Shown here piece by piece: positions 8,947 to 30,290 of a stretch of 30,366 nucleotides of DNA. The position numbers and the translations under genes were made by a program. The notes under the pieces are model-generated. The model did not search any database. It worked only from the letters and a program-made list of their open reading frames with translations, and had not been told where the DNA came from. Source of the DNA: a virus; the IMG/VR virus record IMGVR_UViG_3300025133_000435, positions 1 to 30,366 of that record; one strand, given 5' to 3'. Positions within the stretch are counted from its first letter, which is position 1. Every line of letters begins with the position of its first letter.

Positions 8947-8954
8947 GAGTATAG

Positions 8955-11900
8955 ATGCCAAACGAAATGGCTAACATTCAAGCTCAACAGCAACAGCAGT
9001 GGGAACCTTCATATACTCAAGAGCAATTATCTCTTCTAATAAAAAAATATGACCAAGTACCCTCAACCTTTAAACAAGAAGAGATAGATACGATAAAACA
9101 ACATGCTGAATATTACGGCATGTCATTCTATGATGGGGACTTTTCAGTGTTAGAAGCCGTTAAACAAGCAGGAGCGGGCTTTGTAGAGGGTTTTACTACA
9201 ATGTCGATAGCAGACCACCCTGACAACGAATACGAGGCTGTAGCACGTAATATAGGGCATCTAGCGGGATTTGCCCCTGGGATACTATCTAAACCACTTG
9301 CTTTAATGGGAGCTAAAGGATTAGCTTCAAAAGCAGGAGCTTTAAGGTCAATTCCTATGGCAGGTGCTGATTTTGTAACTAAAAAGGCTAAAAAGCTTAT
9401 TAGTACATCTTCTAAAGCTGCTACTGTAGGTAGACAAGGGGCTGTGGGAACTGTCTCAAATTTCTTGTTAGGCAATAAAATGAAACATATCGCAGAAGGA
9501 GCCTTTCATTTAGGAGTCGCTTCTGGTATATCGTCTTGGCAAGGCGGTGTAGATGAAATGGTTCAAGGGTTTATAGGAGGGGCTAAAGCTGGAGGAGTAT
9601 TCCGTCTTATAGGAAATTATGTTAAAGTAGAAAACCCTACAGGAAAAAAACTTGCAAGAGGGTTAGCAGGCTCGTTATTTATGGGACTACCTTCTACTAT
9701 GCGTGGAGCTACTACTCCAGAGCAGGTATATGAGTATGTAATGGGCGCATATTTTGGTTCAAATGAAATGAGTTGGTCTACTCATAAGGCCCAAAAAAGT
9801 ATACAGAAAATGGAAAAAGAGGCTCAAGGAGACCCTAAAATAAGGGCTCATTATGACCCAGAACGATTAGATTGGTTTCATGAATTACCTGAAGAAGTTA
9901 AACCTAAATTTAAAGAATTAGCAGATAAGAGATATGGGGTTGAGCGTGTACGTTCTGCCATACAAGAAGCTTTATTACAAGGGATAGACCAGGCTGACCG
10001 TATTTCTGACGAAATAACTACCAAAGAAGGTTTTAAACTATCCAGAGTTGTTGTTGACGGCGAAGAACAATTAGAATTAGACGCTTCTACTATAGCTCAA
10101 GACAAGTCATATATGAGTTCAGGCGGGGCTAAAGGAGCTGATACTATATTAGCTAAGTTAGCTCATAGATATGGCATACCTACCGTTAATAGAACATTCC
10201 CTGAACATTATAAAGAAATATATGGCCCAGGGGTTCCTCATATTTTAACTAAAAGTCAATTAAAACAAGCTGACCCTCATTTATATAAAGCTAACGAAAC
10301 TCTTCAACGACCATTAGATGCTTTTATGGCAAAACAAAATCCATATATAGCTAATCTCTGGAGGCGAAATTATTACCAAGTAAAAGATGCCCATACGGTG
10401 TATTCTTTTGGTAAACTTGTAAAAAACAATGAAGCAGTTGATGGTGGTACAGGTTGGGCTACACAAATGGCATTAGACTTGGGTAAGAGGGTATATGTTT
10501 ATGATGTTAATAGTAGTCAATGGAATAAATGGAATAACAATCTAGGTAGATTTGTAGGTATGAAAAATAGAAAACCTCCTAAACCTCCTCGCCATTTTGC
10601 TGGAATAGGTACTCGTACAATGGGGGAATATCCTAATGCTATTAAAGCTGCTGATGATTTTTTTGGCACCCACTTTAAGCCTCAAAAAACAATTGAAGAA
10701 TCAGCATTAACTCCTGAAACATTAGAAAAACCTATAAAAGAATCTAATAAGGTTGAATTATCGCCAGAAGAAAAAAAACAAGTTAAACTATATGAAACTG
10801 AATTAGATGAAATAGAAAATGAAATAGTTGACTTATCTACCGAACTTAAGGAAAATTGGGACCTTGAAATAAATGAACCTATCGATTTAGATTTAGATAT
10901 TCAACTTCGACAAGAACTAGATATATTAGGGCTCAAAAGCCAGGACAAACAGAAAGCTCATTTTGAATTAGTCAATAGAGGTATTGATTTAGAAAATACT
11001 TCTAAAGCTATAGCAGAAGGCGATAAGGTTATTGAAGATATAGAAGCAGCTGAAGATTTAGACTTTGAGACACCAGTAGAGAACGTAAGAGCTGGTAAAC
11101 GAAGTATGGCCTTTATCGAGCATGGCCAAGTAAAACCTTTAATGTCAAAACTATGGAACACGCCAGATTTAGCACATAAAAAACAATTAAAATTAGAAAC
11201 AGCTAATAAGGTGGCTCGTCATATCTCTAAATGGATTGATAAAGATACCAAGATTAATAGAGTTGAAGATGTCATTAAAGGCATAGAGGAGGAATTGACA
11301 GTCTCTTTTTCTGAAGCCCCTGAGGCTAAAGGAGCTCTAAGGCAATGGTTAACTATGAGAAATTGGGGTGAAATAGTACCTCAATTCCAGGCTAATGAGC
11401 GAGGTATCGGGAAACTGTCAGGAGTATCCTTGGGTGGTAACAAACAATACGTAGAAGAACCCCCTAAGCGTTTAGATGCGGTATATAAAGCAGCTGGTGG
11501 ACAAGGCCCATCATATGCAATATTAGATAAAATTACAGTAGAGGAAAATGGTCGCTTAAAGGATTATGATTTATCTACATATAGAGAAAATGTTCTATTA
11601 CGTGAAAACTTTTGGGACCAGGGAAAAGCTGATAAAGCCTACAATGCGTGGCTTGGGGAACTTATGGGACAGAATGGTTCTGATAAGGGTGGTAGATGGT
11701 TTCCTATGGGTGGTAAAGGTGATAATGATAGGATATATTGGGCAAAGGTACATCCTTCCTTACAGAAAGCTGATAAAGGTGAGGTAGTTAAAATAACCGC
11801 CAAAATGCTTCAAATAGCTGAAGGAGCTTCTCCTGGATTTAAGGCTAATTACTTTGAAATGGAAAAAAAGTTTGCCGATAAATATGCAGGTGAAACTTCT

Positions 11901-14900
11901 GCTGAACGAGAAAGATTTAAACAACTACATAGAGAAGCTTTCTTGTCTAACCTTAAATATGATATAGAAGTTAATGGACTTGAATTTACTAATGATAATA
12001 TAAAAAAGGTATTAGGTTCCCAAGAATTTACACAAGAGGCTCTAGATATTACTAATAAGAGTGAGTTAAAATTAATTGACAAAACTACTAAAGTTGTAGA
12101 ATTGGAACATAGTATAAAATCAGTTGAATCTGATAGGATTGTTTCTGCTCGAACAGATATGAAAAATAATAGAATTATTCTTAATCAAAAGGAAATAGAA
12201 AAAACATTTAATGAAAAAGCATGGACAAAACCTAAAGTAAAAGGAGTAAAACCTCTTCCTGAGAATACTTTTAAAACAGTCGAAGAATGGAAGAATTTTG
12301 TTATTGCCCACGAAAAAGCTCATTTTACAACAGCAAATAAAGCATTGTCTAAAGGAGTCGAACGTGAAAATCATGCTAATGAATTAGCTTTAAATATATT
12401 AAAAGATAAAGCGTCAATTACTCCAGATTTTATCAATTCGTCTAAAGCATGGAACAAACGTGCTCAAATATGGTTATCTAATTCTTGGCCAGGAGATGCT
12501 AGATATATAAGTGATAGAATTGCCGATTTACATTATAAAGATGGTAAAGACTTATTTAATACTGGACAGTATAAATATATTATCTCTCCCGATTTAGACC
12601 CCGATATTAAAGCTGAATATAATAAAAATCCACGATATGGATGGGAAACCTCTAGAAAAAATTCAGAACTTGGAGAAAATGTTGATGGAGCTATCATCAT
12701 TAGAGATGACCTAATTGACATTATTAATTTAGATTTTGGACAACCGGAATCTGGTGCTAATAAATCTTTTATTGTTTCTCCGCATGCAGAACATGGAGCT
12801 CTATTAGGTAAATATATGTTTCATGCAGCTGGCCCTGAAATGACTAAAATGATGAAAAATAGGGCCCTTCATATGATTATGCAAGAATCAGCTGTTAAAC
12901 AGCGAGGAACAAGAGGCATGACTGAATATGCTGTTAATAAAGGGGAGCTAAATTATGATATGTCTAAACAATATTATTTAGACCCTGCACATGTTTTAGG
13001 TAATTTCTCTGTAAAAATGTCACATCATATGTTAGAGAATCAACGATTACCTAAACAAATGTTTATGTCATTAATGCCTAGTGAGAATATAGGAGAAGGT
13101 CTTATCAAGGATATGTTTGAAGGAATCATTGGAGAAAAATGGAATGGTAAAGCGTCTCTTAATAAAATGGGTGAAATGGTTTATAAAAGCAATGATTTTT
13201 TAGACTCTTATTTTGCAAAGATAGATACTGGAGCCAAACAGTCTGAATTACGCTTAATGGAAGATAAAATAGTTAAAAATTTAGAAAATTTGGGCATTGA
13301 AAATCTTATGTCTATTTTAGAAAATAACTATTCAGAATCATTATCTGAAAAGGTCTATAAAGAAATACTAAGGATAGATAGGAATACTTTAGCTGAAGCA
13401 TATGCTGAAAAAAATATCAGTAAGTTAGAATATTTAGAAGCATTGTCTGATATTAACGAGTATGAAACAGTTACTCAAAGACAGATTGGAGAGTCTATGA
13501 TATGGGCAGAACAAGAACGAGCTGCGGGTAGAGAAGCTACAATGCTCGGAACCTATATGCATAAGAATATCCGAGATTACAGGATGACAGCATTAAAGAA
13601 TTATGTTGTTAATATAGCAGCTAAACCTAAAATGGGTAATTCAATTGCAGCTGTTATGAGACCATATGACAAAGCTATGAGAATTAATTTAGATGGCAAT
13701 AATAGACGCCTTTTAGAATTAGAAACTAATGATGAGATATTCTTTTTAGATGATGCTTTTAAAAATAGAGTTATTGATGCAGATATTTCTGGCTTAGGTA
13801 AAATAAAGACCTTAGGAACATTATGGGAAAAATATGAAGCAGGAGAATTTCATGGTAAAATAAAAGAAGAAGTTGAGGAATACTTTAGAGCGGCTACGGT
13901 GCGAGTCCCTATGGATTCAAAATCAGGAACCCAAGTCTTACGTTTTGCAGGTTTTACGGGTCGTAAGGGGCATGGAATATTACTACATGGTAGAGCTATG
14001 AGAGCAGAGGGTGGTGCCGACCTTGATGGTGATAAATCATTTGTATTTTTTGGAGGCAAAAATGGGCTAACTTCTGAATGGAAAGATGCTTATTATAATG
14101 CAAAAAAAGAGTTCTATTTTACAGAAAACGGCATTGAAATGGTTGGTGATAACAAGGAGGCTGTAGCAGGAGAAGGTGCTCATAAGGGGAAGGCGTTTAA
14201 TCAATTTTTAGCTCTACAAATGTCAGATGATTTGAAAAGTTTACATGCCTCTAAGGCGGCTATGTATTCACCTCTAGAGCGCATTCGTATTTCCGAAGCT
14301 GCAGTAGGGGGTAGAAATCAATTAGGACCAGCTGTATCTTCCAAACAAGTAATGGCATCTGCTTATGCCGGTATATTAGCTAGTGAAAAAGGTCAAGATG
14401 AATTAATTATATCACACACTGATAAGAAAAAAGGGTTTACTACGGATTATATCGTGCCTATTAAATTACGTACTTCTAAAGAATGGCAACAATATCAAAA
14501 AGAACTTACTCGTGCCATGTTAGGATTAGCTTCTGACCCTATGGATGAAATGGGGTTATCTGGCAAGGATGTTTGGTTTAAGAAAATGTGGGATGCTCAT
14601 TTTGAAATAGACCATGCCAACATTAAACGCAAAACCAAGAAGGGAAAGGAATACAAGCTAAATCAATACGAGAAAGACCACTTATTTAATCCTAAGAAGA
14701 AAAAGGATTATCTAATTAAGATGAGTGATTTAAAAAGTGGTAAAACTATGTTTGGTAAGTATAATAATATTAATAAAGCTTATTGGGGTAAAAATTGGAG
14801 TGCTGGACGACAATTTAATGTATATGAAATGGCTGAGTTAGGCTCTTCTTATTTTGATATACAGCAAGATACCAAGAGAATTAATACATTTTTGCCACTT

Positions 14901-17900
14901 ATAGGTGAAAAACTTGCCAATATACAACTTACTGATTCAATATATAATCGAGTTAATTCCAAAGAAGTGGAAAGATTATATAGTTCTAATGCTAAGAATT
15001 TAAAACAATATGACTGGCTAAAAGATTTACTAGGTCGTTCTAGTTTTAATGTCCCTCATAATCAAATTATTAAAATAATGAGCGCTCAAGAATTATACAA
15101 CCCTTCAAAACTTAGACGTTTAATAGATAGACCTGAAAAATGGGAAGAGATATTTGAGGGGACTCATCTAAAGAATGATTGGAGGTGGGAGAAAGCTGTT
15201 AATGACGTTGAAACCGAGGAGTCTTATAATGCACGGAAATTATTAACCAGGGAATTTGCTATATTAGCCGAAGATGCTCTTTCTAAAGATTTAACAGATA
15301 TGAGCACTATTGCTCTTATTGGTGAAATAACTAAGAAAATGAAAACCGAAGGAGACCTGGGAGTACATTCTAAAGCCGCTACTCTAGAAGAGAATATTGC
15401 ATTTTTAGCGGATGCAGCTAATAAATTTAAACAAAATTCTTGGCTTGCTAAAAAAGATAGAAATAAAATATATGCATTTTTAACATCTGACTTAGCAAGA
15501 ACTCCTCAAGGGAGGAAGATAGCAAATTTTTTAGAAGAAGAAGCAAAAAATGTCCCTCTTCAGCCCCATTTATGGAAAAAAGAAGAGGCAGAATTTATTA
15601 AAAAAGCTTTATCACCAGAAGATTCTCGCTCACTTACACTAGACAATATAGAGATGGATATTGAAGTAAAGGCGTTCAAGGAAGGTTTAACTCCCTTAGG
15701 GGCCAAACTGTTCGACCATTTAATGCTAGGGTCATTACGTAAACATAATGTGCAAAAAATAGATGCTTTTATTAATCAATTTGAGGGTAATATCCCTGAA
15801 GATTTGGCAGATGTTATATCCTCTTTACGCAAGGGGATGGCTGGGACCAATACTTCTAAATTAGGATTTATGTTGCAAAGTGTAAACAATATTAATATTA
15901 GAGAACACTTAGGACAATTTAATAAACTTGTGAACAAGGTATGGAAACGACCTGATGTTGAATTGATTAAGGCTAATCAAGAATTAAATACTAATGAAAC
16001 AATGGGGAGTAAAGAAGCTATTGAAGCTGGCATGCCTGACCGAGCAGTTGAAGAAACAATATATAAAATAGTTGATACAGGGTTTGAGGGAATTAAAGCT
16101 GGTAAGCTTGATGCTGAATCCCGCTCTATAGTATCTGAATTGGCTGCTACATTAAAAGGATATGGAGATAATGTAACATATCGTATTAATGAACTTACTC
16201 GTGGAATACTAGGTAAAGATTTTAACGTCATGAATAAACAAGACTTTATAGCTCTCAATAATTTTTTCAATGACATTAAAAATGGTTCAATATGGCAACA
16301 AATGTTTGAAAAAAATGGCTTACAAAAGTTACGTAAAAGACATTATTGGTTGTTTCCCCGGGCTGTTAATACAGAACTTATGAGAGATGATATACAACTT
16401 TTAAGACGTCGAGGGTTTTTTGTTAATAAATTAGGGACTATGGTTGAGGGGCAGATTGCGACTCCTACGGGATATATTGAAACTTTACAGCATTTTATCT
16501 CTATTGCTAATGATTCTGCAGTAGAAGAAGGTGATGCTATGATTAAAGTCATTAAAGAAAACTTATTCTTTCTTAATTCTATAAAGGAAGGTGAGGCTAT
16601 TCGGAAAATGGCAGTAGCTGTTAGGGAAATGGGAAATATTAAACGATTTAACGATAGTGACCAACAACATAAGGCTAGAACATATATAGAATCGCTTAAA
16701 AAAGTTGAGAAAGAAGTAAATTGGAAAACCCTTAAAAATAAAATTTTTAATGTTGAAATAGACGGTAAACGTGTAGAAAAAACTGGTATAGAATTAATGC
16801 ATAAAAGTAATGAACAATATACTAATTTTTTTAAAGATATGTATGGTTTTATTGAGGGGAAAGAGGGTGCTTTAGATAAATATATTATAAAGGGAAGGTT
16901 CCATGATAAGAAACGCCAGAATCCTATATATGATGTTAATAAGTTTGTTGCCGATGTATCTCGTGCTGTACATAATGGTACAGCTAATAGAGTCTATTGG
17001 AAGAAATTTGGAATTGATGGATTAAGACGTATTGCTCGTTCAGCTATGTTTGAGCGGATACATGACCCCGAGATATTAAAACGCATTCTTGCTGAACCTG
17101 AAATTAAAACAGGAAAAATAGAGTTTGAACATTATTGGCCCCATATGTTCTTTGATAGTAAGGAAGCCAAAAGGGCTTCTGATGTTGCTATTAAGCGTAT
17201 TATGTCAGACCCCAAACTAACTGAAGAAGTTAAAAACGAAGAGCTTAAAAAATTAATGTATCGTCATAGAGCTATGGATGGTGAGTGGAACTTTGAAGAT
17301 TTAGATGATTGGCATATGGCAGACAAGATTATATTAGAAATAGCTGAAAAAAAGGAAGTTTCTGAAGAAAATATTAAATGGTTTAACTCTAATGAACGTT
17401 CAGGAAATATGCAAGCACGTACATCTACTATATCTGGATGGACATTGGATAGTAGTGCTGCTGAAGCATATGCTCGACAAATGAGCAATACATTTTTTAG
17501 ACAATTATCTCAAATATTTGGTCGTGAAATTATTGAGGGTAAACCAAAAGCTATGAGTATAGACGGTATAACAAGTATGCGTTCAGCTATGTTTAAAAAA
17601 TATGGAGCAGACCAAACTAATGCATGGACAGAGTATGCTAAATTGTACGTACAAGACGCCTTGGGCAATCCCTCAGTGGTTCCTCAAAGATTAATAGATA
17701 ATCCGAATATGGCGCTAAAGGGGACTCCGTATGCAGCATGGGCTGACAATAAGGTAAAAGACCGAGTTAATAAGATGTTAAAAGCTGTAGGAATAACGGA
17801 TAAAAAATTACCTGAAGCTTTACAAGGGGTAGATTTACAGACTATACGTAATTTAAGTAATATGGAAGCTAAATATGAAATGGCTTCATTACTAGCTCAC

Positions 17901-19025
17901 CCTAAGAGTATGGTTGGTAATATATTTGGTGGTACTGCACATACAGTGCAGTCAGCTGGTTGGCGGAATTTTTTACATGCTAGGAACATTAAAGAATTAC
18001 GTAAAATAAACTCTGAGTGGAAGACCATAGAAGATGTAGAAAATTTTGTAGTTAGCCACGGTGTGTTACCTGATTTTTTAGTATATGAATTTGGATTACA
18101 CGAGGAATATCAGAAAGTTCAGAATAAGGAATTTATTGAAGCTGTAAGCCAAAAAATATCACGCAATCCTAACGCAGGTGAAGAATCTATAAAGGAATTA
18201 GCTAAAAAATATAAAATTACTGATAAGGTTAATGAGTTTGCTGCTAAATTTATGAGTGTTCCTGAAAAAGCTTTACGTAGAGATGCTTTTATGGCCCATT
18301 ATTTACAGGCATGGAATAAATTTGGTGGAGCCCTTAAAGACCCTAATCATCCATTTTTAATTGAGATGGGTAAAAAGGGTGTAAAAGCTACTCAATTTTT
18401 ATATTCAGCACCATTTAGACCTGCCTTTGCTAGAACAGCTCTAGGTAAGATAATGACACGTTTTCAACTATGGAGTTGGAATGCTGTAAGATTTAGGAAT
18501 GATGTGGCCAGAGAAGCTAAGATATACGGCTTTTTACCAGGAACTGAACAATATGAAAAATTTCAACGTACTGCTCAAATAGATATGTTTGTATTCGCAT
18601 TGGCTAATGTATTCGCATATTCCTTATTTGAAGCTACATTGCCTGCTCCTTGGTCATATTTACAAGATACGGCTGATTGGGTATTTGGAGATGAAAAAGA
18701 GCGTGATAAAGCGTTCTTTGGTTCATATCCTACTGCAGTAGCTCCATTACAGTTGGTAACTCCTCCTATATTGAGATTATTACCTCCCATGATGAGAGCA
18801 ATTGTCGATGATGATTGGAGTAGAGTAAGTGAATATTATGCATATACTATGTTTCCATTCGGTAGAATAGCTAGAGATGTTGCAGGACCAGGTAATGTAT
18901 TAGAAAACCCTATGCGTATAATGGAGAAAACAACTGGCTTTCCATTACAGCAAATGTCAAAGGGTTCTAAGAATATTCGAGAAGGCAAATATAATGATAA
19001 AATATATCCTGGAAGTTATGAATGA
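8955..19025 (+). CDS. Giant multidomain virion-type protein with SLOG, zincin and RNA-polymerase-like double-psi barrels
   Basis: This 3356-aa protein starts at ATG 8955 (GGAG upstream). Domains seen, in order: Ala/Gly-rich amphipathic N-terminus (about 65-290). SLOG-type domain at about 383-560, with SGGAKGAD at 387-394, then GGTGWATQMA and FAGIGTRT. Charged coiled-coil region to about 700. HEKAH zincin-like site at 1119-1123 with E1138 as a possible third ligand. A first barrel-like segment with DGA (1244-1246), K1270 and K1286. A second with R1650-V-P followed 39 residues later by DLDGD (1689-1693), then GRNQLGPAV. The C-terminus has hydrophobic helices at about 3209-3228 and 3260-3280. 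RxP plus DxDGD matches the catalytic barrel of two-barrel RNA polymerases (beta-prime NADFDGD, QDE-1, crAss-type). Its place after ejection genes suggests an injected virion polymerase. Polymerase activity is inferred; the motif spacing is seen. Confidence 0.75.
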   Translation: MPNEMANIQAQQQQQWEPSYTQEQLSLLIKKYDQVPSTFKQEEIDTIKQHAEYYGMSFYDGDFSVLEAVKQAGAGFVEGFTTMSIADHPDNEYEAVARNIGHLAGFAPGILSKPLALMGAKGLASKAGALRSIPMAGADFVTKKAKKLISTSSKAATVGRQGAVGTVSNFLLGNKMKHIAEGAFHLGVASGISSWQGGVDEMVQGFIGGAKAGGVFRLIGNYVKVENPTGKKLARGLAGSLFMGLPSTMRGATTPEQVYEYVMGAYFGSNEMSWSTHKAQKSIQKMEKEAQGDPKIRAHYDPERLDWFHELPEEVKPKFKELADKRYGVERVRSAIQEALLQGIDQADRISDEITTKEGFKLSRVVVDGEEQLELDASTIAQDKSYMSSGGAKGADTILAKLAHRYGIPTVNRTFPEHYKEIYGPGVPHILTKSQLKQADPHLYKANETLQRPLDAFMAKQNPYIANLWRRNYYQVKDAHTVYSFGKLVKNNEAVDGGTGWATQMALDLGKRVYVYDVNSSQWNKWNNNLGRFVGMKNRKPPKPPRHFAGIGTRTMGEYPNAIKAADDFFGTHFKPQKTIEESALTPETLEKPIKESNKVELSPEEKKQVKLYETELDEIENEIVDLSTELKENWDLEINEPIDLDLDIQLRQELDILGLKSQDKQKAHFELVNRGIDLENTSKAIAEGDKVIEDIEAAEDLDFETPVENVRAGKRSMAFIEHGQVKPLMSKLWNTPDLAHKKQLKLETANKVARHISKWIDKDTKINRVEDVIKGIEEELTVSFSEAPEAKGALRQWLTMRNWGEIVPQFQANERGIGKLSGVSLGGNKQYVEEPPKRLDAVYKAAGGQGPSYAILDKITVEENGRLKDYDLSTYRENVLLRENFWDQGKADKAYNAWLGELMGQNGSDKGGRWFPMGGKGDNDRIYWAKVHPSLQKADKGEVVKITAKMLQIAEGASPGFKANYFEMEKKFADKYAGETSAERERFKQLHREAFLSNLKYDIEVNGLEFTNDNIKKVLGSQEFTQEALDITNKSELKLIDKTTKVVELEHSIKSVESDRIVSARTDMKNNRIILNQKEIEKTFNEKAWTKPKVKGVKPLPENTFKTVEEWKNFVIAHEKAHFTTANKALSKGVERENHANELALNILKDKASITPDFINSSKAWNKRAQIWLSNSWPGDARYISDRIADLHYKDGKDLFNTGQYKYIISPDLDPDIKAEYNKNPRYGWETSRKNSELGENVDGAIIIRDDLIDIINLDFGQPESGANKSFIVSPHAEHGALLGKYMFHAAGPEMTKMMKNRALHMIMQESAVKQRGTRGMTEYAVNKGELNYDMSKQYYLDPAHVLGNFSVKMSHHMLENQRLPKQMFMSLMPSENIGEGLIKDMFEGIIGEKWNGKASLNKMGEMVYKSNDFLDSYFAKIDTGAKQSELRLMEDKIVKNLENLGIENLMSILENNYSESLSEKVYKEILRIDRNTLAEAYAEKNISKLEYLEALSDINEYETVTQRQIGESMIWAEQERAAGREATMLGTYMHKNIRDYRMTALKNYVVNIAAKPKMGNSIAAVMRPYDKAMRINLDGNNRRLLELETNDEIFFLDDAFKNRVIDADISGLGKIKTLGTLWEKYEAGEFHGKIKEEVEEYFRAATVRVPMDSKSGTQVLRFAGFTGRKGHGILLHGRAMRAEGGADLDGDKSFVFFGGKNGLTSEWKDAYYNAKKEFYFTENGIEMVGDNKEAVAGEGAHKGKAFNQFLALQMSDDLKSLHASKAAMYSPLERIRISEAAVGGRNQLGPAVSSKQVMASAYAGILASEKGQDELIISHTDKKKGFTTDYIVPIKLRTSKEWQQYQKELTRAMLGLASDPMDEMGLSGKDVWFKKMWDAHFEIDHANIKRKTKKGKEYKLNQYEKDHLFNPKKKKDYLIKMSDLKSGKTMFGKYNNINKAYWGKNWSAGRQFNVYEMAELGSSYFDIQQDTKRINTFLPLIGEKLANIQLTDSIYNRVNSKEVERLYSSNAKNLKQYDWLKDLLGRSSFNVPHNQIIKIMSAQELYNPSKLRRLIDRPEKWEEIFEGTHLKNDWRWEKAVNDVETEESYNARKLLTREFAILAEDALSKDLTDMSTIALIGEITKKMKTEGDLGVHSKAATLEENIAFLADAANKFKQNSWLAKKDRNKIYAFLTSDLARTPQGRKIANFLEEEAKNVPLQPHLWKKEEAEFIKKALSPEDSRSLTLDNIEMDIEVKAFKEGLTPLGAKLFDHLMLGSLRKHNVQKIDAFINQFEGNIPEDLADVISSLRKGMAGTNTSKLGFMLQSVNNINIREHLGQFNKLVNKVWKRPDVELIKANQELNTNETMGSKEAIEAGMPDRAVEETIYKIVDTGFEGIKAGKLDAESRSIVSELAATLKGYGDNVTYRINELTRGILGKDFNVMNKQDFIALNNFFNDIKNGSIWQQMFEKNGLQKLRKRHYWLFPRAVNTELMRDDIQLLRRRGFFVNKLGTMVEGQIATPTGYIETLQHFISIANDSAVEEGDAMIKVIKENLFFLNSIKEGEAIRKMAVAVREMGNIKRFNDSDQQHKARTYIESLKKVEKEVNWKTLKNKIFNVEIDGKRVEKTGIELMHKSNEQYTNFFKDMYGFIEGKEGALDKYIIKGRFHDKKRQNPIYDVNKFVADVSRAVHNGTANRVYWKKFGIDGLRRIARSAMFERIHDPEILKRILAEPEIKTGKIEFEHYWPHMFFDSKEAKRASDVAIKRIMSDPKLTEEVKNEELKKLMYRHRAMDGEWNFEDLDDWHMADKIILEIAEKKEVSEENIKWFNSNERSGNMQARTSTISGWTLDSSAAEAYARQMSNTFFRQLSQIFGREIIEGKPKAMSIDGITSMRSAMFKKYGADQTNAWTEYAKLYVQDALGNPSVVPQRLIDNPNMALKGTPYAAWADNKVKDRVNKMLKAVGITDKKLPEALQGVDLQTIRNLSNMEAKYEMASLLAHPKSMVGNIFGGTAHTVQSAGWRNFLHARNIKELRKINSEWKTIEDVENFVVSHGVLPDFLVYEFGLHEEYQKVQNKEFIEAVSQKISRNPNAGEESIKELAKKYKITDKVNEFAAKFMSVPEKALRRDAFMAHYLQAWNKFGGALKDPNHPFLIEMGKKGVKATQFLYSAPFRPAFARTALGKIMTRFQLWSWNAVRFRNDVAREAKIYGFLPGTEQYEKFQRTAQIDMFVFALANVFAYSLFEATLPAPWSYLQDTADWVFGDEKERDKAFFGSYPTAVAPLQLVTPPILRLLPPMMRAIVDDDWSRVSEYYAYTMFPFGRIARDVAGPGNVLENPMRIMEKTTGFPLQQMSKGSKNIREGKYNDKIYPGSYE

Positions 19026-19981
19026 TAAAGCTATTATTTAAAGCCTTACATGGGTTACCTAAGGATTATACTAAGGATGGTATAAGATTAGCTAAATATT
19101 TTGCTAAAGACCCTAAACAAACTTTGTTTTCATTTTTTTCATGGATAAATCCAGCATATTATAAAGGGAGTGTACCTGGTGTAACATATGGCATTAAGAA
19201 CTCTATAAAACAAGCTAGAGATGTAGCAAAATGGACTGGACAATCTACTAAAAATGTTATGGATGATATTTTTAAACGAAAAACTATGCTTAGTTATGAG
19301 CATGCTGGAAAGAAAGTTCCTCAAATCTGGAAAAAAGTAGAAAAGTTAGATTATAATAAAAATGTAGATAAATTTAAACAAGCTAATAAAACTATGAGAG
19401 CTCTTAGAAAAGAACAAACAGATTTAATAAAGGCCAGTGAGCCTTATGCAAGGGCTTTAAATATTAATAATACATATAGCAAACAAGCATCTAAATATTA
19501 TGATGTCTTTGAAAATATTCCTGCAAGGAATGTTGGGATGTCACCTGATTTATTAAAATTGAATAAATTTACTCCTGATAGACCTATTACTCAATTAAAG
19601 ATTAAAGATAAAGAATGGTTAAAAGAGCTAAGAGCAAAAACTGTTAATTCTCCTAGATTTAAAGAAGCTTATTTTGATTTAGCAGGAGACTCTAATGCTT
19701 TTGGTAAAATAAAAGGTGGGTATGGAGTAAAGCAAGTAGGACCACAGCAAGTACAGTTTACACCCCATTTCAATGAAACTAGACCATGGAAGCCAACTGT
19801 TGGTCAAGAGGTAGCTAATAAGGGTGATAAAGTATTAGGAGGTTTTGCTTCCCAAGTAGATTTTACATGGCATAGACCTCAGTATAGTTTCTTTGATAAA
19901 ACTGATTTTACAGGAGGTTTATTAGGACGAACCTTAGATAAATTCCTCAAACCAGTAGTTATTACGGGGCATACTTTATAA
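19022..19981 (+). CDS. Unidentified 319-aa protein, partner of the giant protein
   Basis: The ATG overlaps the giant gene's stop (ATGA), so the two are translationally coupled and the product probably acts with the giant protein or in the same particle. It is basic and Lys-rich in the first two thirds (KDYTKDGIRLAKYFAKDPKQ) with a helical middle (QANKTMRALRKEQTDLIKAS). The C-terminus is aromatic and Gly-rich (FTGGLLGRTLDKFLKP). No known domain is recognised. It is the last gene of the rightward operon and is followed by the convergent terminator. Confidence 0.5.
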   Translation: MIKLLFKALHGLPKDYTKDGIRLAKYFAKDPKQTLFSFFSWINPAYYKGSVPGVTYGIKNSIKQARDVAKWTGQSTKNVMDDIFKRKTMLSYEHAGKKVPQIWKKVEKLDYNKNVDKFKQANKTMRALRKEQTDLIKASEPYARALNINNTYSKQASKYYDVFENIPARNVGMSPDLLKLNKFTPDRPITQLKIKDKEWLKELRAKTVNSPRFKEAYFDLAGDSNAFGKIKGGYGVKQVGPQQVQFTPHFNETRPWKPTVGQEVANKGDKVLGGFASQVDFTWHRPQYSFFDKTDFTGGLLGRTLDKFLKPVVITGHTL

Positions 19982-23477: not shown

Positions 23478-23667
23478 CGTCTGTTCTCCATATTAAGTTT
23501 ATGTTCAGTTCTGAACGCCATATTCCTAAGACTAAACTTCCTACAACACCTATAGGTGTTGCCTCTGAAATCAATCCTATTTTGAATAATCCAAAAAATG
23601 TTACTGTTATACCGTTACAATATTTATCTATAACTATTAATGGCCATAAATTAATTTGGAATTTCAT
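23461..23667 (-). CDS. Small hydrophobic protein, 68 aa
   Basis: ATG 23667 has an excellent AGGAGA SD and overlaps the primase-helicase stop by 17 nt. The frame is also open upstream, but without a comparable SD. The product is rich in hydrophobic and Gly residues (FFGLFKIGLISEATPIGVVG, then SLVLGIW), consistent with one membrane-associated segment or a compact beta protein. No family is recognised. Confidence 0.5.
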   Translation of the reverse strand: MKFQINLWPLIVIDKYCNGITVTFFGLFKIGLISEATPIGVVGSLVLGIWRSELNINLIWRTDDEKTQ

Positions 23668-25441
23668 CGTATATTCTCCTAAGCCTAAATGATGGCCTCC
23701 ATTGAACATCTGCTGTGAATAGTTCACCATCAGTATTCTTTAATAGTTCTATTTTCTTTATATCTGTATTAGCTTGACCGATAAGGCCCACTACCTTTCT
23801 GCTAGCGTTTTCAATTGCACCAGACCCTTTGCCAGCGTATAGGTCTAATGCATCTGCTCTACTATATTCTCTCGATACTTGAGAAACTTGAATAATAATA
23901 ACATCCATATTAACAGCCATATTACTTAAATTATGTGATATATATTTCACTTGTTCATATTCTCCTTTGATATGAGGAGGGGTTTCAACCAAGTCAATAT
24001 AATCTACCACAACTACAGCAGGATGAAGTTCTCGTATTTTATTTTGTATTTGCTCAAGGGTTGGAGAGATTGTTTGTACTACTACGTGTTGCAAGAGTTC
24101 TTTGTGACACTCATATACTTCTGCAGGATTTGCATTTACTTCATCTTTAGTTAAGCCTGATACTATTTGCAAATGTCTTCTATGCATATACCATGCACTT
24201 AATTCTAATGACAAAAATAGGGTGGGTATTTGATTTTCAGGTTTAATACAATCATTTGCCATATCGACACCTAATATCAAATTAGATGCAAAAGTAGTTT
24301 TATTGCTACCAGTAGGACCAAATACTGTTACTAATTCTCCTGGATATATGGTAGAATCTAATGTTTTATCTAATCCTAACATGTTAGACATATTTAATGT
24401 TTTACCTATAAAGTCAGTTGATAATCTACTTAAATATTCTTCTTGTAGTGTTTCAGCATCCTTGACTTCTACATCATAGTCTTTACGTTTAAAATAAATA
24501 CAATTAGTCCTACAATATTGCTTCATTATATCATCATTACAAGAATATTTATATCCTCTTTCATAGGTTTGCTCCACATTCTTAATTATCTGACCAGGTT
24601 CTAATGAGTTATTGTTCCAATGTAAGGTACTTACCTTAGCATACTCAGATGGAACACCGTGACGCCTAAAATGGCTTGCTATACGCAAACTTGTCATATT
24701 TCTATTCCCTTCGGTAGGACCTACTGACAGCATTCTTTGCACACATGGCACTACTGTAGTTGGCTCAACAACGGATTTGAAAGTTTGTATTCTAGGTTTT
24801 TCAGTTATTACTCTGTCTTCTAATTCTCCATCACCTAATAATTCTTGGTATGGAAAATCAAAGCGTGCTGTAGATGCTAGATGTTTTATTTCATCTGGCA
24901 TACTATTATATACTTCCTTTAAGCTAAGAGGAATTTTATATAAATTGGTCTTTTTATTAATAGTATGTTGAACTCTGTAAATACCAGGAGCCATATATAT
25001 CATAAAATCGATACCTTCAAATAACGTCTTTAATGTCTCCTTGACAAGAAAGGGCAAATCAGGTGAAGGGTTGAAATTAAATATACTTCCTGGTAATGAT
25101 ATATGATATCCACTACCGCTAAAGTATGTTTGAGTTGCTTTTCTAGGATTAATACTATATTCATCTTCTAAAATATGTAATAAATTACGTACTTTGTCTA
25201 ATGTAAATTCATCAGTATTATCCTTCTTGTCAATATCAATAAGAATATTATCAATATATCGCATTCCTATGAAATTACGAACACTACCTTCCTTGGTAAT
25301 ATACTGTTTAGCAGGTTCATCATATAAGTACATTGAGCGATATAAAGGTTCATTTTTAGATATATAGCTTGCTAAGTTAGCTTTAGGAATAAGAGTCCCC
25401 CTGTTACGGGGGGACCCTATTGCTACTTCAACATACTTCAT
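23651..25441 (-). CDS. Fused archaeo-eukaryotic-type primase and DnaB/gp4-like helicase, 596 aa
   Basis: The start overlaps the upstream stop (TAATG). Residues about 55-175 carry AEP primase motifs: IDID (D69, D71), SGSGYHISLP (H113), and APGIYRVQHTINKKTNLYKI, with D145 a candidate third acid. A Cys cluster follows (C301, C310, C314). The C-terminal half is a RecA-fold helicase: GPTGSNKTT Walker A (375-383), LSLELS, VVVVDYID Walker B (476-483), IIIQVSQVSRE, and a DnaB-like GKGSGAIENASRKV end. The product should synthesise primers and unwind DNA at the fork, as T7 gp4 does with a TOPRIM primase. The AEP-helicase fusion differs from that; such fusions are known in some phages and plasmids. Confidence 0.85.
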   Translation of the reverse strand: MKYVEVAIGSPRNRGTLIPKANLASYISKNEPLYRSMYLYDEPAKQYITKEGSVRNFIGMRYIDNILIDIDKKDNTDEFTLDKVRNLLHILEDEYSINPRKATQTYFSGSGYHISLPGSIFNFNPSPDLPFLVKETLKTLFEGIDFMIYMAPGIYRVQHTINKKTNLYKIPLSLKEVYNSMPDEIKHLASTARFDFPYQELLGDGELEDRVITEKPRIQTFKSVVEPTTVVPCVQRMLSVGPTEGNRNMTSLRIASHFRRHGVPSEYAKVSTLHWNNNSLEPGQIIKNVEQTYERGYKYSCNDDIMKQYCRTNCIYFKRKDYDVEVKDAETLQEEYLSRLSTDFIGKTLNMSNMLGLDKTLDSTIYPGELVTVFGPTGSNKTTFASNLILGVDMANDCIKPENQIPTLFLSLELSAWYMHRRHLQIVSGLTKDEVNANPAEVYECHKELLQHVVVQTISPTLEQIQNKIRELHPAVVVVDYIDLVETPPHIKGEYEQVKYISHNLSNMAVNMDVIIIQVSQVSREYSRADALDLYAGKGSGAIENASRKVVGLIGQANTDIKKIELLKNTDGELFTADVQWRPSFRLRRIYDEIPN

Positions 25442-26046
25442 TAAAGATTACTCAGTGACGCTTCATTAAGCGTAGAAGTCCCTTCTGCAGTAGGAGGAGC
25501 AACATATTCTTTAATACGTCCTTTTTGCTTTAACCATGTAACTAGACTAGCCATTTCTTGTTTACCTTTATCTGTATTTGGAAAAAGTCTAGGATAAACT
25601 TCAGTATAAACCTTTCTAGTTTTAAGATTTTGTGATTTATAAATATAACCAACATAATTCATAGGGGCTTCAGTTAAGTCTGGAAATCCACCTTCAGCAA
25701 AACGTTCATTTAGATAACTTGCTATGTCTGGTATAATTTCTCCATCATCTGTTTCCCATTTACCTTGTAAATTTATCCCTGCTGAGCAGCCTATGCTTTC
25801 AAATAGTCGATACAACCTTGTCAATACTGTTCCTCCTGAAATATCACCATTAGGTGCTTTATCTAAGCTTCCTTTGATATCTAGAGTATTAGTATATTTA
25901 GAATTTGGAATAGCTACTTCTACTGAAAGATATATGTCGGCCCAATCATATTCGCCACCTCTATCTTTAAATTGTACTATTCCCATCTCTTTAATCCCAA
26001 GGAACCCTCCTTTGGATGTAGTTATTTCTGGTTTAAATAATGCCAT
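25441..26046 (-). CDS. Probable single-stranded-DNA-binding protein beside Sak4, 201 aa
   Basis: The start overlaps the Sak4 stop (TAATG), with AGAGGAT upstream. The first 140 residues look beta-rich with OB-fold-like strands (DWADIYLSVEVAIPNSKYTN, then EAPMNYVGYIYKSQNLKTRK). The C-terminus is a flexible, low-complexity tail (APPTAEGTSTLNEASL). Phage Sak4 genes are commonly followed by an SSB-type (for example DUF669) gene, and this spot between Sak4 and the primase-helicase fits. The usual acidic SSB tail is absent. Role inferred mostly from context. Confidence 0.55.
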   Translation of the reverse strand: MALFKPEITTSKGGFLGIKEMGIVQFKDRGGEYDWADIYLSVEVAIPNSKYTNTLDIKGSLDKAPNGDISGGTVLTRLYRLFESIGCSAGINLQGKWETDDGEIIPDIASYLNERFAEGGFPDLTEAPMNYVGYIYKSQNLKTRKVYTEVYPRLFPNTDKGKQEMASLVTWLKQKGRIKEYVAPPTAEGTSTLNEASLSNL

Positions 26047-26708
26047 TATTTATCCTCTTTTTTATAGATTAAGTCCCAACTAAATGGGATTATTTCTCCT
26101 CGTAGATGCGCACATCTACTTCCAGCTTCTAATGCTTTTCCTGATTTAAAGGAAACCATAAGTTGCTCTTCTTCGTCTCTAAACATATAACCAATTGCAT
26201 CACATTGAGCCATAATAAGATTCTTTAACTTACCTGATATATCTAAACTTTCAGGTTCTATAGCATTAGAATTATCTATAGCTACTGCTGTTTTGCGATG
26301 TCCTATAACGATTAAATGCGGTACTAATGATGCCAACTTCTTTAAATGATTAATAACCTTAGTCCTTACCAATCCAAACCCTTTCCCATAAGGTAAATCA
26401 TTAATAGATTCTATTTCATATTCTTTGAGTATGGACTGTTCTATCCACTCTACAAGTTTATCAACAGTATCTAAGGCAAAATATGTATAATCATGTTTAT
26501 CTGCATCTTTATAGAATTGCAGTAATTCTTCTCTGCTATTAATATTAGTAAAATAACCTTCTAACATTGAAGAGCCTTCTTCGGTATCAATTACTAAGCA
26601 ATCATCAAGTTGTGATAATGCTGTAGTTTTACCTACCTTAGGTGCTCCATATAGTAATGTTATTTTAGGATTAATCGACAGAGGTTTTCTCTTTTTCTTT
26701 TCTAACAT
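26046..26708 (-). CDS. Sak4-like RecA-fold ATPase, 220 aa
   Basis: The N-terminus has TLLYGAPKVGKTTAL (Walker A), then CLVIDTEEGS, YFALDTVDKLVEW (Walker B) and LIVIGHRKTA. This is the compact core of Sak4-type phage recombinases (RecA/RAD51 relatives that anneal or pair single strands with an SSB). Its length fits the family. It sits between a coiled-coil protein and the probable SSB, directly before the primase-helicase, so replication and recombination appear coupled. The related phage AAA 'ATP-binding protein' family cannot be fully separated by eye. Confidence 0.8.
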   Translation of the reverse strand: MLEKKKRKPLSINPKITLLYGAPKVGKTTALSQLDDCLVIDTEEGSSMLEGYFTNINSREELLQFYKDADKHDYTYFALDTVDKLVEWIEQSILKEYEIESINDLPYGKGFGLVRTKVINHLKKLASLVPHLIVIGHRKTAVAIDNSNAIEPESLDISGKLKNLIMAQCDAIGYMFRDEEEQLMVSFKSGKALEAGSRCAHLRGEIIPFSWDLIYKKEDK

Positions 26709-26880
26709 TTGTATTCTTCATCCTTTCATTATATTTTCTTTTATATTCCCGTTGTTTAAAAGTAATTTCATTTTCCAATGCTTCTATTTTTTCATAGATT
26801 GGATATTTGGGAAAAAATGGATATAATTTAGTTAATTTAGTATGCAATATATCTATTTCTTTTCCAAGTTTTTTTAGCAT
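26671..26880 (-). CDS. Small coiled-coil protein upstream of Sak4, 69 aa
   Basis: The start is chosen at ATG 26880 because AGGAG lies 5 nt upstream. Earlier in-frame ATG and GTG codons lack a site. The product is a charged helix with heptads (LKKLGKEIDILHTKLTKLYP, then IYEKIEALENEITFKQREYK) and a Lys/Arg-rich end. It overlaps the Sak4 start by 38 nt. It may be an accessory partner of Sak4; no family is recognised. Confidence 0.6.
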   Translation of the reverse strand: MLKKLGKEIDILHTKLTKLYPFFPKYPIYEKIEALENEITFKQREYKRKYNERMKNTNVRKEKEKTSVD

Positions 26881-26932
26881 TTTTTCTCCTTGTTCGTTCA
26901 TTGCAAAATCGAGAGAGACCACGCTTATCTAC

Positions 26933-27028: not shown

Positions 27029-27676
27029 CTATCTCCTTGCAAGTGTTAATTGCGGAAAACTAAAATACATTTCTTCCATTAAAGGTTGGTCTGTAAGTGC
27101 TTTTCGCACACCATTAGCAATAAAAGCTCCAGCCATATTACTACAATATGAAGTTGCTTTTGCGTTACAAGGAGCGTCTTTTGCCATTCCATCAGTATAC
27201 CAATGTTTTGTATATCTTTTAAGTGTAGGTTTGTAGAACGAATGTTGTTGATATTCTTCAGCACCCATTCTACCATCTATTAATACACCAGGATTAGCCT
27301 TACAAGCTTCTTTAGCTGCTAATAATCTTGTCCTCATATTATCAAAACCTAATATTACTATATCATCTTCATCTAATTGTTTAGGGAACTTAATAAATTC
27401 ACCATGATATTTAACAATAAATGAATCAGAATTAATAGATTTAATATGTAGTTCTAGTGCATTGACTTTCTTTTTACCTATATCTTTTAAGATATAATGT
27501 GAAACACCAACATTTTGTACTTCCACTACATCCATATCATATAATACAAATTGAGCACCTCCCATTCGTGTTATTTGAGTAGCTGCGGAGCTACCAATAG
27601 CCCCGCAACCAAGTATATGAAAGGTTTTATTGTTAAAATTATTAACAATCTCTAAACTTCTTTCATTAATGTACAT
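27029..27676 (-). CDS. ThiF/E1-like adenylyltransferase, 215 aa
   Basis: An AGGAG lies 9 nt before the ATG, which overlaps the JAB gene's stop. Features of E1-like enzymes: ILGCGAIGSSAA nucleotide loop (21-32), acidic YDMDVVE (46-52), N55 in EVQNVGVSHY, K65 and K69-70, and FDNMRTR (111-117) with the DNxxxR signature. A candidate active-site C170 follows in DAPCNAKATSYC. At 215 aa it is a minimal ThiF fold without an extra Zn or UBL domain. E1s adenylate the C-terminus of a ubiquitin-like or sulfur-carrier protein. Adjacent E2-like and JAB genes argue for a conjugation system rather than thiamine or Moco synthesis. The usual Arg of the E1 NxxR motif is not seen. Confidence 0.85.
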   Translation of the reverse strand: MYINERSLEIVNNFNNKTFHILGCGAIGSSAATQITRMGGAQFVLYDMDVVEVQNVGVSHYILKDIGKKKVNALELHIKSINSDSFIVKYHGEFIKFPKQLDEDDIVILGFDNMRTRLLAAKEACKANPGVLIDGRMGAEEYQQHSFYKPTLKRYTKHWYTDGMAKDAPCNAKATSYCSNMAGAFIANGVRKALTDQPLMEEMYFSFPQLTLARR

Positions 27677-28562
27677 TGTTTTTTTCTCCTATTTTTGCAA
27701 TGAAGTCTTCTGGCCATATCCTATAACAGACTGAAATAAGTTCCTCTGCTGGAAACAATGTCATTGTTAAACCCCATGGTTTAAGCAATTTGCTTATCTT
27801 CTTAACTTTTTTACAGTAATTAGGATAATTTATTTCTTGTGCCGCATAAGTTTCTTCTGTTAATTCATCATGTAATGACTCTATTTTATCTAATATTTCT
27901 AGTTTCTTACCATAAGGCAAAACATCTGTAATATTAGATTTTGCTTGACCCTTATAATCAAAAGCTCCATTATTAAAATCTAAAGAGCGTTGAGGATAAG
28001 TATTACATGGAATATGCGATATATGCTTGTTATGCTCCCAACCAGATGTAATTACTGGTGCTGGTTTAGTACATAACTTTTTAACTTCAGTATCTATTTC
28101 TTTTTGATTCTCAGTTTCTACAGTAAGAAAGTTGAGTGTTACATTCTCTTCATGTAGAAAAGGTTTAAATAGTTGAATCCGAAGTTTATATTCTCTTTTA
28201 AGATTAACTACAAGTGATATACTAAAATCATTGGTAGTGCTCTTTAAGATAGTATTGTTATCAGTACCTGACCAAAAAGCAGCCATAGTATGATGACTAT
28301 GCCACCAACAATGTTTTGCACCTCTTCCATGCTTAGAATAATATTTACTTAATTCTGTAGCATCAAGTGTACATTCTCCAGCAGATACTTCTTGTTTTAA
28401 AATAACAGGGTCTTTTAAGATATAATCACCCTCTTTGTCTTGAATTACGATTAATTGCCCACCAATCTCACTTTTAAATTGAGTATGTGCTGATTGAGCG
28501 TATGCTATTACTTTATTGAAGTCATCTGGGTGTATCCAGAATCTGGTATCTTTATTATCCAT
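27666..28562 (-). CDS. JAB/JAMM-domain protein, 298 aa
   Basis: ATG 28562 overlaps the E2-like gene's stop. The first 110 residues have a complete JAMM metal site: E32 in SEIGGQL, then HSH (88-90), seven residues, S98, two residues, D101. This is the E...HxH(x7)S(x2)D pattern of zinc isopeptidases that process or remove ubiquitin-like tags. The remaining 190 residues are a longer unknown C-terminal part with helices (LEILDKIESLHDELTEETYA) and a Cys/Trp-containing end. Its location between E2-like and E1-like genes points to precursor processing or deconjugation. All ligands are present, so activity is expected. Confidence 0.9.
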   Translation of the reverse strand: MDNKDTRFWIHPDDFNKVIAYAQSAHTQFKSEIGGQLIVIQDKEGDYILKDPVILKQEVSAGECTLDATELSKYYSKHGRGAKHCWWHSHHTMAAFWSGTDNNTILKSTTNDFSISLVVNLKREYKLRIQLFKPFLHEENVTLNFLTVETENQKEIDTEVKKLCTKPAPVITSGWEHNKHISHIPCNTYPQRSLDFNNGAFDYKGQAKSNITDVLPYGKKLEILDKIESLHDELTEETYAAQEINYPNYCKKVKKISKLLKPWGLTMTLFPAEELISVCYRIWPEDFIAKIGEKNNVH

Positions 28563-30147
28563 TTTTTGACAACCTTTCTAGGAATGAATTATTAGTTAAA
28601 GGAGTAGAACCTCTTGCTGTTAATAGTGCTTGAAGTCTTTTAAATACTAAATCTCTAGTTGAAAATTGAGATTGACGCTTTTTAAAGTTATTTTCTCCTA
28701 TTAAGTTTTTTAATTGGTTTACTAACCATATCTCTTCAGCATATTCTATCCATTCTATTGCAAATAGAACAAGTGCTTTTTCGTCTTTAGGGTCAATAGT
28801 TTTCTCTGTCATCTCAGACCACTTTTTAGAGTTAAGACCATATCCTATAGATTCTACTTCTAACGTTACTTCTGCTGACTTAAATAAACTCATCTTAAGT
28901 TTACTATAAAGTAAAATAAGAGTATTTAGAAGAGAAGTTTTTCTATTAGTATCTTTAAGCCATGTAGTAAGAACTTTTATACTGTCAGGAGGTATTTCTA
29001 CTGGTCTAAAAGTATTAACAAGTTCACATCTAACTTTCTTAGCACAACTATTACAATGAGTTTCTATCATTTTATCACCTAAAATAGTATGTTCAGCTTT
29101 ACAAATAGGCCTTATAGGTTCTGTATGTGCAATGATTGTGTCATGCCAATCGTTCGGTATTCCAACTACAGAATAGGAAATCCTATTTAATGGTGTAACT
29201 GTAGCCCATGGAAAATAACTTACCCATTTTTTTAATGTATGATGAGCATCTCCTATTCTTCCAGTAACCATTTCTATAATGAATTGTTCCTGAAAGTCTC
29301 CTAGACATAGGTTCCCTAGACCATACTGTCCATAATTCCTCAACCCATCAGTTTCATCTGAAGAAGGAATGGCATTTATTGCATATGGATGAGAAAAATG
29401 CTTAGGGTTATCATGAAAGAATACCATTTTAGCATCAAAGTTCCTTAAATTAAAGGAAGTAAATAACGCATATAAGTTTATCGAAAAATATACTCTTCCA
29501 TTACCAAATGGTATAGTAGTTCTCCATTCATTTCGATAAGTCATCTCAATATTTATATCATTTAATGGAAATTCCACATTAAGGTAAATATTTTTTGGAG
29601 ATATTGTATCTAATTTGAGTCGCTCTAGAGCTTGGTCTCTTTTCTTTTTCGTATATTCTTTAGAATGTACGAATTTTGTAGCGCCATCTTCAAAGTAAGG
29701 ATAAGTACCTATACAAAATGTTGTATATCCAAAAGTATCCTTTATCATATCATAATGAGGTGTATCTGATATTTCCCAAGAACCGTTAAAACTTTGAGAT
29801 TTGAGTATGTTATGCCATTTATCGTAGATTTTCTTACCATTGACATTACTATATATTTCAGAATGTGATTTTCTGAATTTAGATAAGCTATTGTTTATAT
29901 GTACTATCTCCGAACGAAATCTACTAAACTTCCATTCATCATTGTTTAGTACAGTACTTAGCTTTCTTGCATTGTTAAACTTTGGAAACATATGCTGGGT
30001 TGCTGCTTTTTTGATTTTATCATAAGTTCCAGGTTTAAATTTACCTGCATTAGTTATTTTAATATCAGTATCATATTTTGCGTTAAAGTTTTCCATCTTT
30101 TGTAATATTTTATAAGATGGGTCTAATAAGTTATAATTCATTTCCAT
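28555..30147 (-). CDS. E2/ubiquitin-conjugating-like protein with long extensions, 530 aa
   Basis: The start lies just after the preceding ORF's stop (TAATTATG), with AAGGG upstream. Residues about 190-320 carry an E2-type core: strands INIEMTY and FDAKMVFFHDN, HP at 253-254, and GNLCLGDF with C281 as the likely thioester cysteine. Then FIIEMVTGRIGDAHHTLKKW and VSYFPWATVTPLNRI. This matches prokaryotic E2-like proteins ('HPH...GxxCLGD...L..G......fL.sY'). A Cys cluster follows (C349, C365, C368, C374), perhaps zinc. The N-terminal 190 and C-terminal 150 residues are of unknown fold. The assignment is by motif pattern. Confidence 0.7.
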   Translation of the reverse strand: MEMNYNLLDPSYKILQKMENFNAKYDTDIKITNAGKFKPGTYDKIKKAATQHMFPKFNNARKLSTVLNNDEWKFSRFRSEIVHINNSLSKFRKSHSEIYSNVNGKKIYDKWHNILKSQSFNGSWEISDTPHYDMIKDTFGYTTFCIGTYPYFEDGATKFVHSKEYTKKKRDQALERLKLDTISPKNIYLNVEFPLNDINIEMTYRNEWRTTIPFGNGRVYFSINLYALFTSFNLRNFDAKMVFFHDNPKHFSHPYAINAIPSSDETDGLRNYGQYGLGNLCLGDFQEQFIIEMVTGRIGDAHHTLKKWVSYFPWATVTPLNRISYSVVGIPNDWHDTIIAHTEPIRPICKAEHTILGDKMIETHCNSCAKKVRCELVNTFRPVEIPPDSIKVLTTWLKDTNRKTSLLNTLILLYSKLKMSLFKSAEVTLEVESIGYGLNSKKWSEMTEKTIDPKDEKALVLFAIEWIEYAEEIWLVNQLKNLIGENNFKKRQSQFSTRDLVFKRLQALLTARGSTPLTNNSFLERLSKNG

Positions 30148-30149
30148 AA

Positions 30150-30290
30150 TTATACCCTTTTTTGTGTTGTAAGGGAGTAATATCTTCCGGTTGCTCGTGA
30201 GCTCGGGCTAAGATAAAATACCCCCTTATAACGTTTTAAATATGATGTAGTTTCAATCAAAATGTTGTTATCTAGGGGTTTTTGGCGCAT
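30150..30290 (-). CDS. Possible small protein at the head of the leftward operon, 46 aa
   Basis: ATG 30290 to TAA 30150-30152 gives 46 basic residues (MRQKPLDNNILIETTSYLKR, later SLTTQKRV). The stop is 2 nt from the E2-like start, which is good operon spacing. No proper SD is seen before the ATG (AAGG about 20 nt away), and the frame is open further upstream. The start is therefore uncertain. It has no GG end and is too short for a ubiquitin-like fold. Confidence 0.4.
   Translation of the reverse strand: MRQKPLDNNILIETTSYLKRYKGVFYLSPSSRATGRYYSLTTQKRV

Follow-up and report, generated by a model that had tools for sequence, protein, structure and literature searches.

A phage-encoded Ubl-E2-JAB-E1 gene cassette that probably specifies a reversible ubiquitin-like conjugation cascade

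Does a phage that carries relatives of ubiquitin-conjugating enzymes own a complete protein-tagging pathway, and on which proteins would it act? This question is raised by a 30,366 nt viral sequence, IMGVR_UViG_3300025133_000435 (hereafter the window, to which coordinates refer; L-numbers denote contigs or loci of relatives). An earlier note, made from the window alone, described three overlapping genes at 27029-30147 encoding an E2-like protein, a JAB/JAMM peptidase, and a minimal E1. The three genes are there on the - strand with all of the residues it named, and the E2-JAB-E1 reading is borne out by a ThiF match above cut-off, near invariant JAMM and Cys residues, and an E2 profile that scores above decoys. 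The cassette does not, however, begin at the E2 gene: a gene for a ubiquitin-like modifier (Ubl), missed in the note, precedes it, and with this Ubl the "E2-JAB-E1-like" set becomes a complete cascade. We are reasonably confident that the phage encodes a complete, reversible Ubl-conjugation cascade (Ubl, E2, JAMM peptidase, and E1) whose targets probably lie at the replication and recombination apparatus. The gene set, its order, conservation and core status, the catalytic residues, and the Ubl fold prediction were all computed here.

The modifier gene was found on IMG/VR contig L001, which overlaps the window over 6648 bp with 5 mismatches and runs past its end. A 77-aa open reading frame (ORF) lies there just upstream of E2 (L001:758-991, equivalent to window positions 30391-30624, 25 bp past the window edge), and its product ends in AGLKGGQ. 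Relatives sit upstream of E2 in phage loci wherever the flank suffices and are, in most loci, single-domain proteins of 67-89 aa. All 68 distinct Ubls have a Gly-Gly with Lys or Arg at most 2 residues before it (K/R-(x)-GG), and this Gly-Gly falls within 12 residues of the end in 59 of the 68, compared with 5 of the 492 other small genes that these contigs carry. The tail beyond it ranges from 0 residues (e.g., L082, L137, and L143) to more than 100 (L065, L073, and L036); most Ubls do bear such residues, which fits maturation by a peptidase. Pfam ThiS was matched by 20 of 31 diverse Ubls (best 1.3e-4). Modelled with AlphaFold2 (pLDDT 80), the L001 protein has the layout strand-strand-helix-strand-strand-strand. 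The Foldseek matches listed for this model are nearly all ubiquitin-fold proteins, headed by the ubiquitin of Caldiarchaeum in complex with an Rpn11 homologue. By VIA, the model superposes on archaeal Mth1743 (Z 8.0, 2.9 A over 66 residues) and on TtuB (2.1 A over 60 residues). As modelled, the 77-aa protein is a ubiquitin-like modifier with a beta-grasp fold and a C-terminal Gly-Gly.

Some Ubl genes depart from this plan. Three have extensions of 100-120 aa past the Gly-Gly (L036:637-1191, L065:5077-5700, and L073:2288-2878), one of them weakly matching DUF7303; by analogy with ubiquitin-ribosomal-protein fusions, these extensions may be released by the JAB enzyme. The crAss-like phage cr106_1 (L004:2695-3898) has an HNH endonuclease gene inside its Ubl gene, splitting the Ubl domain from the part that is a C-terminal extension in relatives.

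Residue counts for the three enzymes were drawn from 80 kept loci plus references. The E1 is matched by Pfam ThiF at 2e-18 (66.8 bits; cut-off 28.1) and consists of a single ThiF domain without a rhodanese domain. Its sequence carries the marks of the ThiF/E1 superfamily beyond this match, namely GCGAIGS at 23-29 (GxGxxG), DNMRTR at 112-117 with the predicted adenylation Arg (R117), and the predicted catalytic Cys within APCNAKAT (C170, invariant in 65/65); GCGAIGS and R117 are also conserved. The closest relatives of solved structure were UBA5 (1.4e-5) and Cap2 (7e-4). Pfam Prok-JAB matches the peptidase below threshold (4e-4, score 20.7; cut-off 25). The peptidase has the residues expected of a JAMM enzyme, with HSHHTMAAFWSGTD fitting HxHx7Sx2D and E32 as the Glu. 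H88, H90, S98, and D101 are invariant in 71/71 and E32 is kept in 70/71. A JAMM peptidase with altered spacing (HSHHGLSGGAYISSVD) was seen at L182:6016-6849, adjoining a Ubl that ends in KSGK, and its activity is possibly changed or lost. Profiles of the Ubl, E2, and JAB gave only chance-level matches to PDB sequences, and tblastn of the window E2 and JAB against isolate phages gave no match.

The E2-like protein had no useful match in Pfam, PHROGs, NCBIfam, or PADLOC, and PF14461 (Prok-E2_B) had none in 16 records. Its residues read H253 P254 ... G278 N279 L280 C281 L282 G283; C281 and G283 are kept in all 55 relatives, H253 and P254 in 51-55, and the four Cys of a downstream cluster (C349, C365, C368, and C374) in 53-55. 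The spacing of this cluster, C-x15-C-x2-C-x5-C, is possibly that of a zinc or iron-sulfur site. The earlier note had held that absence of the Cys and JAMM residues in close homologues would speak against its reading; the counts show them retained. When the phage E2 core was compared by hhalign with a profile of E2s from Calditrichota bacteria, the score was 35.5 (E 2.9e-4) and the catalytic Cys fell in register; the best of 77 decoys reached 21.0. A phage subgroup (L130, L133, L141, L162, L182, and L184) has textbook E2 motifs of the HPHI..G..C type, e.g., HPHIQNGSACMGNF. These E2s scored 45.0 against the window E2 core (E 2.2e-5) and 40.8 against bacterial E2s (E 2.5e-4), with decoys at most 23.2 in both cases. 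Homology of the window protein to E2s is supported by these profile matches above decoys; a direct comparison with eukaryotic E2s was not significant. Modelled by AlphaFold2 at its full 530 aa, the protein has a middling pLDDT of 72. VIA aligned this model to three Tsg101 UEV entries (Z 3.2-4.0, about 120 residues), the two best alignments spanning model residues 104-329, which is too weak to count alone.

The window belongs to a group of environmental phages whose larger contigs are 50-57 kb. A JAB profile search matched at least 280 IMG/VR contigs, and in all 56 phage loci where the four genes were found they run Ubl-E2-JAB-E1 on one strand. A test of core status was seeded with the primase-helicase rather than the cassette, and only relatives whose upstream sequence was long enough were counted. 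E1 turned up in 54/54, JAB in 42/44, E2 in 27/33, and Ubl in 24/30; some E2 and Ubl genes missed by this count (and the JAB of L182) are present by eye as divergent forms in the HPHI..G..C subgroup (L130, L141, and L182). The cassette is considered core because E1 occurs in every one of these relatives. Such a survey of related phages, proposed in the earlier note, does not support an accessory anti-defence cassette: the genes form a core block whose place next to recombinase, SSB-like, and primase-helicase genes is fixed. Of 70 loci, 69 have Sak4 (34), ERF (22), or another AAA_24 protein (13) directly after E1; a gene resembling a single-stranded DNA-binding protein (SSB) comes next in 67 of 70, with the primase-helicase farther downstream.

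The same order, Ubl-E2-JAB-E1, was also observed in Flavobacterium phage FpV4, Steigviridae (crAss001 and DAC15), and Kolpuevirus. In crAss001 the genes are gp79 (Ubl), gp78 (E2-like), gp77 (JAB), and gp76 (E1). The crAss-like cassettes sit between primase and uracil-DNA glycosylase, preceded by helicase, Sak4-type ATPase, and primase genes. Their JABs are clearly homologous to those of the window's group (hhalign 3.9e-12), and their Ubls have KSG or KSGG at the domain end, mostly ahead of a long extension. A whole-length hhalign of the window E2 against the crAss E2 was not significant, and the core comparison (0.2) was no better than decoys; homology of the two E2s is argued from gene order, a common H-x-H...C-x-G motif, and the homology of their partners. 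In jumbo phages of Erwinia and Xanthomonas, a candidate Ubl with SGG as its very last residues accompanies an E1 and a large protein with IHPHM...GSLCLGSF, and DNA ligase and topoisomerase genes flank the set. No JAB was seen in these cassettes (L094 and L095) by inspection only, which fits a Gly-Gly that is already exposed. The cassette is linked to DNA replication and recombination across phage groups of unrelated appearance.

From these sequences we infer enzymatic activity, an order of steps, timing, and a substrate. The JAMM peptidase would trim the residue or residues past the Ubl Gly-Gly (Q in the L001 Ubl), the E1 would adenylate the exposed tail and hold the Ubl as a thioester on C170, and the Ubl would then be handed to C281 of the E2. 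The E2 would attach it to a target, with the Cys4 cluster and the extensive non-catalytic regions of this protein standing in for an E3, and the JAMM enzyme would later take the Ubl off again. The targets would be phage or host proteins at the phage DNA replication and recombination apparatus, as suggested by the fixed place beside recombinase, SSB-like, and primase-helicase genes. Several points weigh against this reading. The small E1 lacks a Cys domain of its own. Foldseek with the model of the whole E2 returned nothing significant, so the UBC fold is not proven by structural matches, and the E2 call is made from motifs and from profile comparisons above decoys. Synteny by itself does not name a substrate, and the replication neighbours and the fast-changing E2 do not point the same way.

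Pooled dN/dS (13 pairs) was 0.13 for E1, 0.15 for Ubl, 0.25 for JAB, and 0.42 for E2, compared with 0.08-0.21 for neighbouring replication genes, and E2 identity drops to 51-62% between phages with E1s that are 85-95% identical. All cassette genes are under purifying selection, with dN/dS well below 1, and E2 is the quickest to change. A fast E2 suggests changing substrates; it fits these, perhaps in the host, or relaxed constraint, and is awkward with conserved replisome targets. The same cascade could instead be aimed at host defence, RNA polymerase, or metabolic proteins, inactivating or redirecting them early in infection, with E2 tracking its host targets. We regard this as unlikely, though worth serious attention, given that dN/dS stays below 1 everywhere and that the cassette belongs to the core and keeps a constant position, which is not typical of accessory counter-defence genes.

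A role in counter-defence, in which the JAB strips or mimics host Bil, CBASS, or Bub tags while the E1 and E2 compete for or sequester the host Ubl, would answer to the fact that hosts turn such tags on phages (PMC10097602; reviewed in PMC11354881), and Borg elements were proposed to carry de-SAMPylases for the same reason (PMC12660748). It appears improbable to us: the cassette is core, and its own GG-tailed Ubl and intact E1 and E2 would be superfluous for the mere removal of a host tag. We give equally little credence to a sulfur carrier of the ThiS/MoaD type, whose thiocarboxylate would feed thiolation and be recycled by the JAB as in CysO/Mec+. The Ubl does resemble ThiS and the E1 is of the ThiF superfamily, yet every cassette has a protein with the invariant E2-type Cys, and the E1 has no rhodanese domain. 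It is nearest to UBA5, a conjugation E1, which counts for conjugation. Rhodanese, Aminotran_5 (cysteine-desulfurase type), and PAPS reductase were found in none of 22 cassette-phage records, with control genomes positive, and the sulfur carrier was rejected as the main explanation on these missing partner genes; the host could supply sulfur transfer.

Coordinates are collected in Table 1. Overlaps of 8 nt (E2/JAB) and 11 nt (JAB/E1) between the three co-directional genes suggest coupled translation. An 83-aa ORF at 26671-26922, between E1 and Sak4, has no relatives that we found among the loci. The nearest matches of the window primase in a sequence search are distant. Genes that look structural occupy positions 400-19981, among them a 3356-aa ORF (8955-19025); eight + strand ORFs of this region (the 3356-aa ORF left out) matched no PHROGs family, which points to a virion of undescribed type.

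Table 1. Cassette genes and neighbours, in window coordinates except for the last row
Feature	Position	Strand	Remarks
E2-like conjugating enzyme (putative)	28555..30147	-	530 aa; H253-P254 ... C281-x-G283; Cys4 cluster C349-x15-C365-x2-C368-x5-C374
JAB/JAMM metallopeptidase (predicted)	27666..28562	-	298 aa; E32, H88, H90, S98, D101
Minimal E1, ThiF superfamily (predicted)	27029..27676	-	215 aa; GCGAIGS, D112-N113-x3-R117, C170
46-aa ORF between Ubl and E2 genes	30150..30290	-	No detected relatives; may be a leader or spacer rather than a gene
Sak4-like ssDNA-annealing ATPase	26046..26708	-	Conserved gene next after E1; same position in relatives
SSB-like protein (cluster c6)	25441..26046	-	Next in conserved order; presumed SSB
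Primase-helicase (DnaB_C)	23651..25441	-	Next in conserved order; query for core test
Jumbo-phage candidate cassette	L095:2706-5916 and 5929-6612; L094 likewise		HPH...GSLCLG protein has Cys-rich end

The chemistry is already known, and what is new, as far as we found, is a core cascade owned by phages. Iyer et al. (2006) described phage Ubl and JAB genes in tail assembly only and Ubl-E2-JAB-E1 operons in bacteria only (PMC1779556). We found no published report of the phage-encoded cascade, although several key Bil and Bub papers fall outside the literature covered and this absence is not proof. A search by terms found no mention of it in the jumbo-phage review by the Iyer et al. group (PMC7824862), the crAss-like genome survey (PMC7886860), the crAss001 structure paper (PMC10172136), or the Crassvirales review (PMC10136315). 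Prokaryotic Ubl cascades are known mainly from bacteria, several as anti-phage weapons; here, the full cascade and its tag are phage-owned in a conserved core block. The presence of the set in hundreds of related phages, locked beside DNA-copying genes, suggests that tagging of proteins belongs to the normal replication of these phages and is not solely a bacterial weapon. It is possible, and we propose it tentatively, that large tailed-phage lineages including cultured gut crAss-like phages have their own ubiquitin/SUMO-like signalling, a reversible tagging of replisome or host factors that is core to genome replication and would be the viral equivalent of eukaryotic PCNA/RPA modification. 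With members in cultured phages (crAss001 gp79-gp76, DAC15, and FpV4), the cascade is directly testable. Such a reading would supersede the annotations 'thiamine biosynthesis protein ThiF' and 'metalloprotease domain', and it raises the question of whether the cascades of bacteria and of phages have a common origin or were transferred from one to the other.

The closest bacterial counterparts are the Calditrichota operons. Against 84,980 species genomes, the only contig matched by the JAB profile came from a Calditrichota metagenome-assembled genome (L085). It has Ubl(KGGC)-E2-JAB-E1, matching the phage order, and a ParB-like gene lies near this operon. Its E2 motif, YIHPHISDGSICWGN, aligns onto YHPNINSNGSICLDI of human UBE2D2 in a weak pairwise match; for UBE2D2, UBE2N, and UBE2I we used what we take to be their sequences. 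E2s of this type occur in 10 of 39 Calditrichota genomes, one with four copies, and most of the retrieved loci keep the whole four-gene operon. Like the phage cassettes, these operons (L085 and L096-L112) have the same gene set and order, a GG-tailed Ubl with a short tail, an E2 that has IHPH...ICWGN and metal-binding Cys near its C-terminus, and a JAB with 36% identity across the JAMM region. They differ in being chromosomal, with up to four copies per genome and no phage replication neighbours, and the phage E2 is longer and very divergent. The comparison for them is the Ubl-E2-JAB-E1 operon type 6d of Iyer et al. (PMC1779556).

The earlier note had likened the cassette to type II CBASS, Bil, and PRTRC operons, a kinship that mostly fails on the defining features tested; membership was rejected on domain number, the CEHH motif, gene fusion, and model cut-offs. 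BilABCD has its genes in the order of their letters. The phage cassette resembles it in having Ubl, E2, JAB, and E1 as separate genes in this A-B-C-D order. Bil is an anti-phage defence in which BilA contains a pair of Ubl domains, BilB carries a CEHH motif, and BilD combines inactive and active adenylation domains with a Cys domain (PMC11354881). The phage Ubl has one domain in most loci, the phage E1 is a single ThiF domain of 215 aa, and the CEHH positions counted from C281 (Glu+6, His+8, and His+13) read E287, F289, and V294, with both His missing. Type II CBASS has E1, E2, and JAB chemistry, and the phage E1 matches Cap2 models and structures; Cap2, however, is an E2-E1 fusion that tags a cGAS-like enzyme (PMC10097602), whereas all phage loci encode E2 and E1 by two separate genes, which come with their own Ubl. 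PRTRC also places a Ubl/E2/JAB/ThiF set on mobile elements (plasmids or integrative elements), but its models score far below threshold on the phage proteins (ThiF 20.1 vs 144.75 bits; PRTRC_A 16.4 vs 101.8). In lambda/T1 tail assembly, TAPI-TAPK pairs a phage Ubl with a JAB peptidase (PMC1779556), although these are tail-assembly genes without E1 or E2. The UFM1 cascade (UBA5/UFC1) has a minimal E1 as well, UBA5, to which the phage E1 is closest among solved structures; the UFM1 cascade differs in being eukaryotic and in the single Gly exposed on UFM1.

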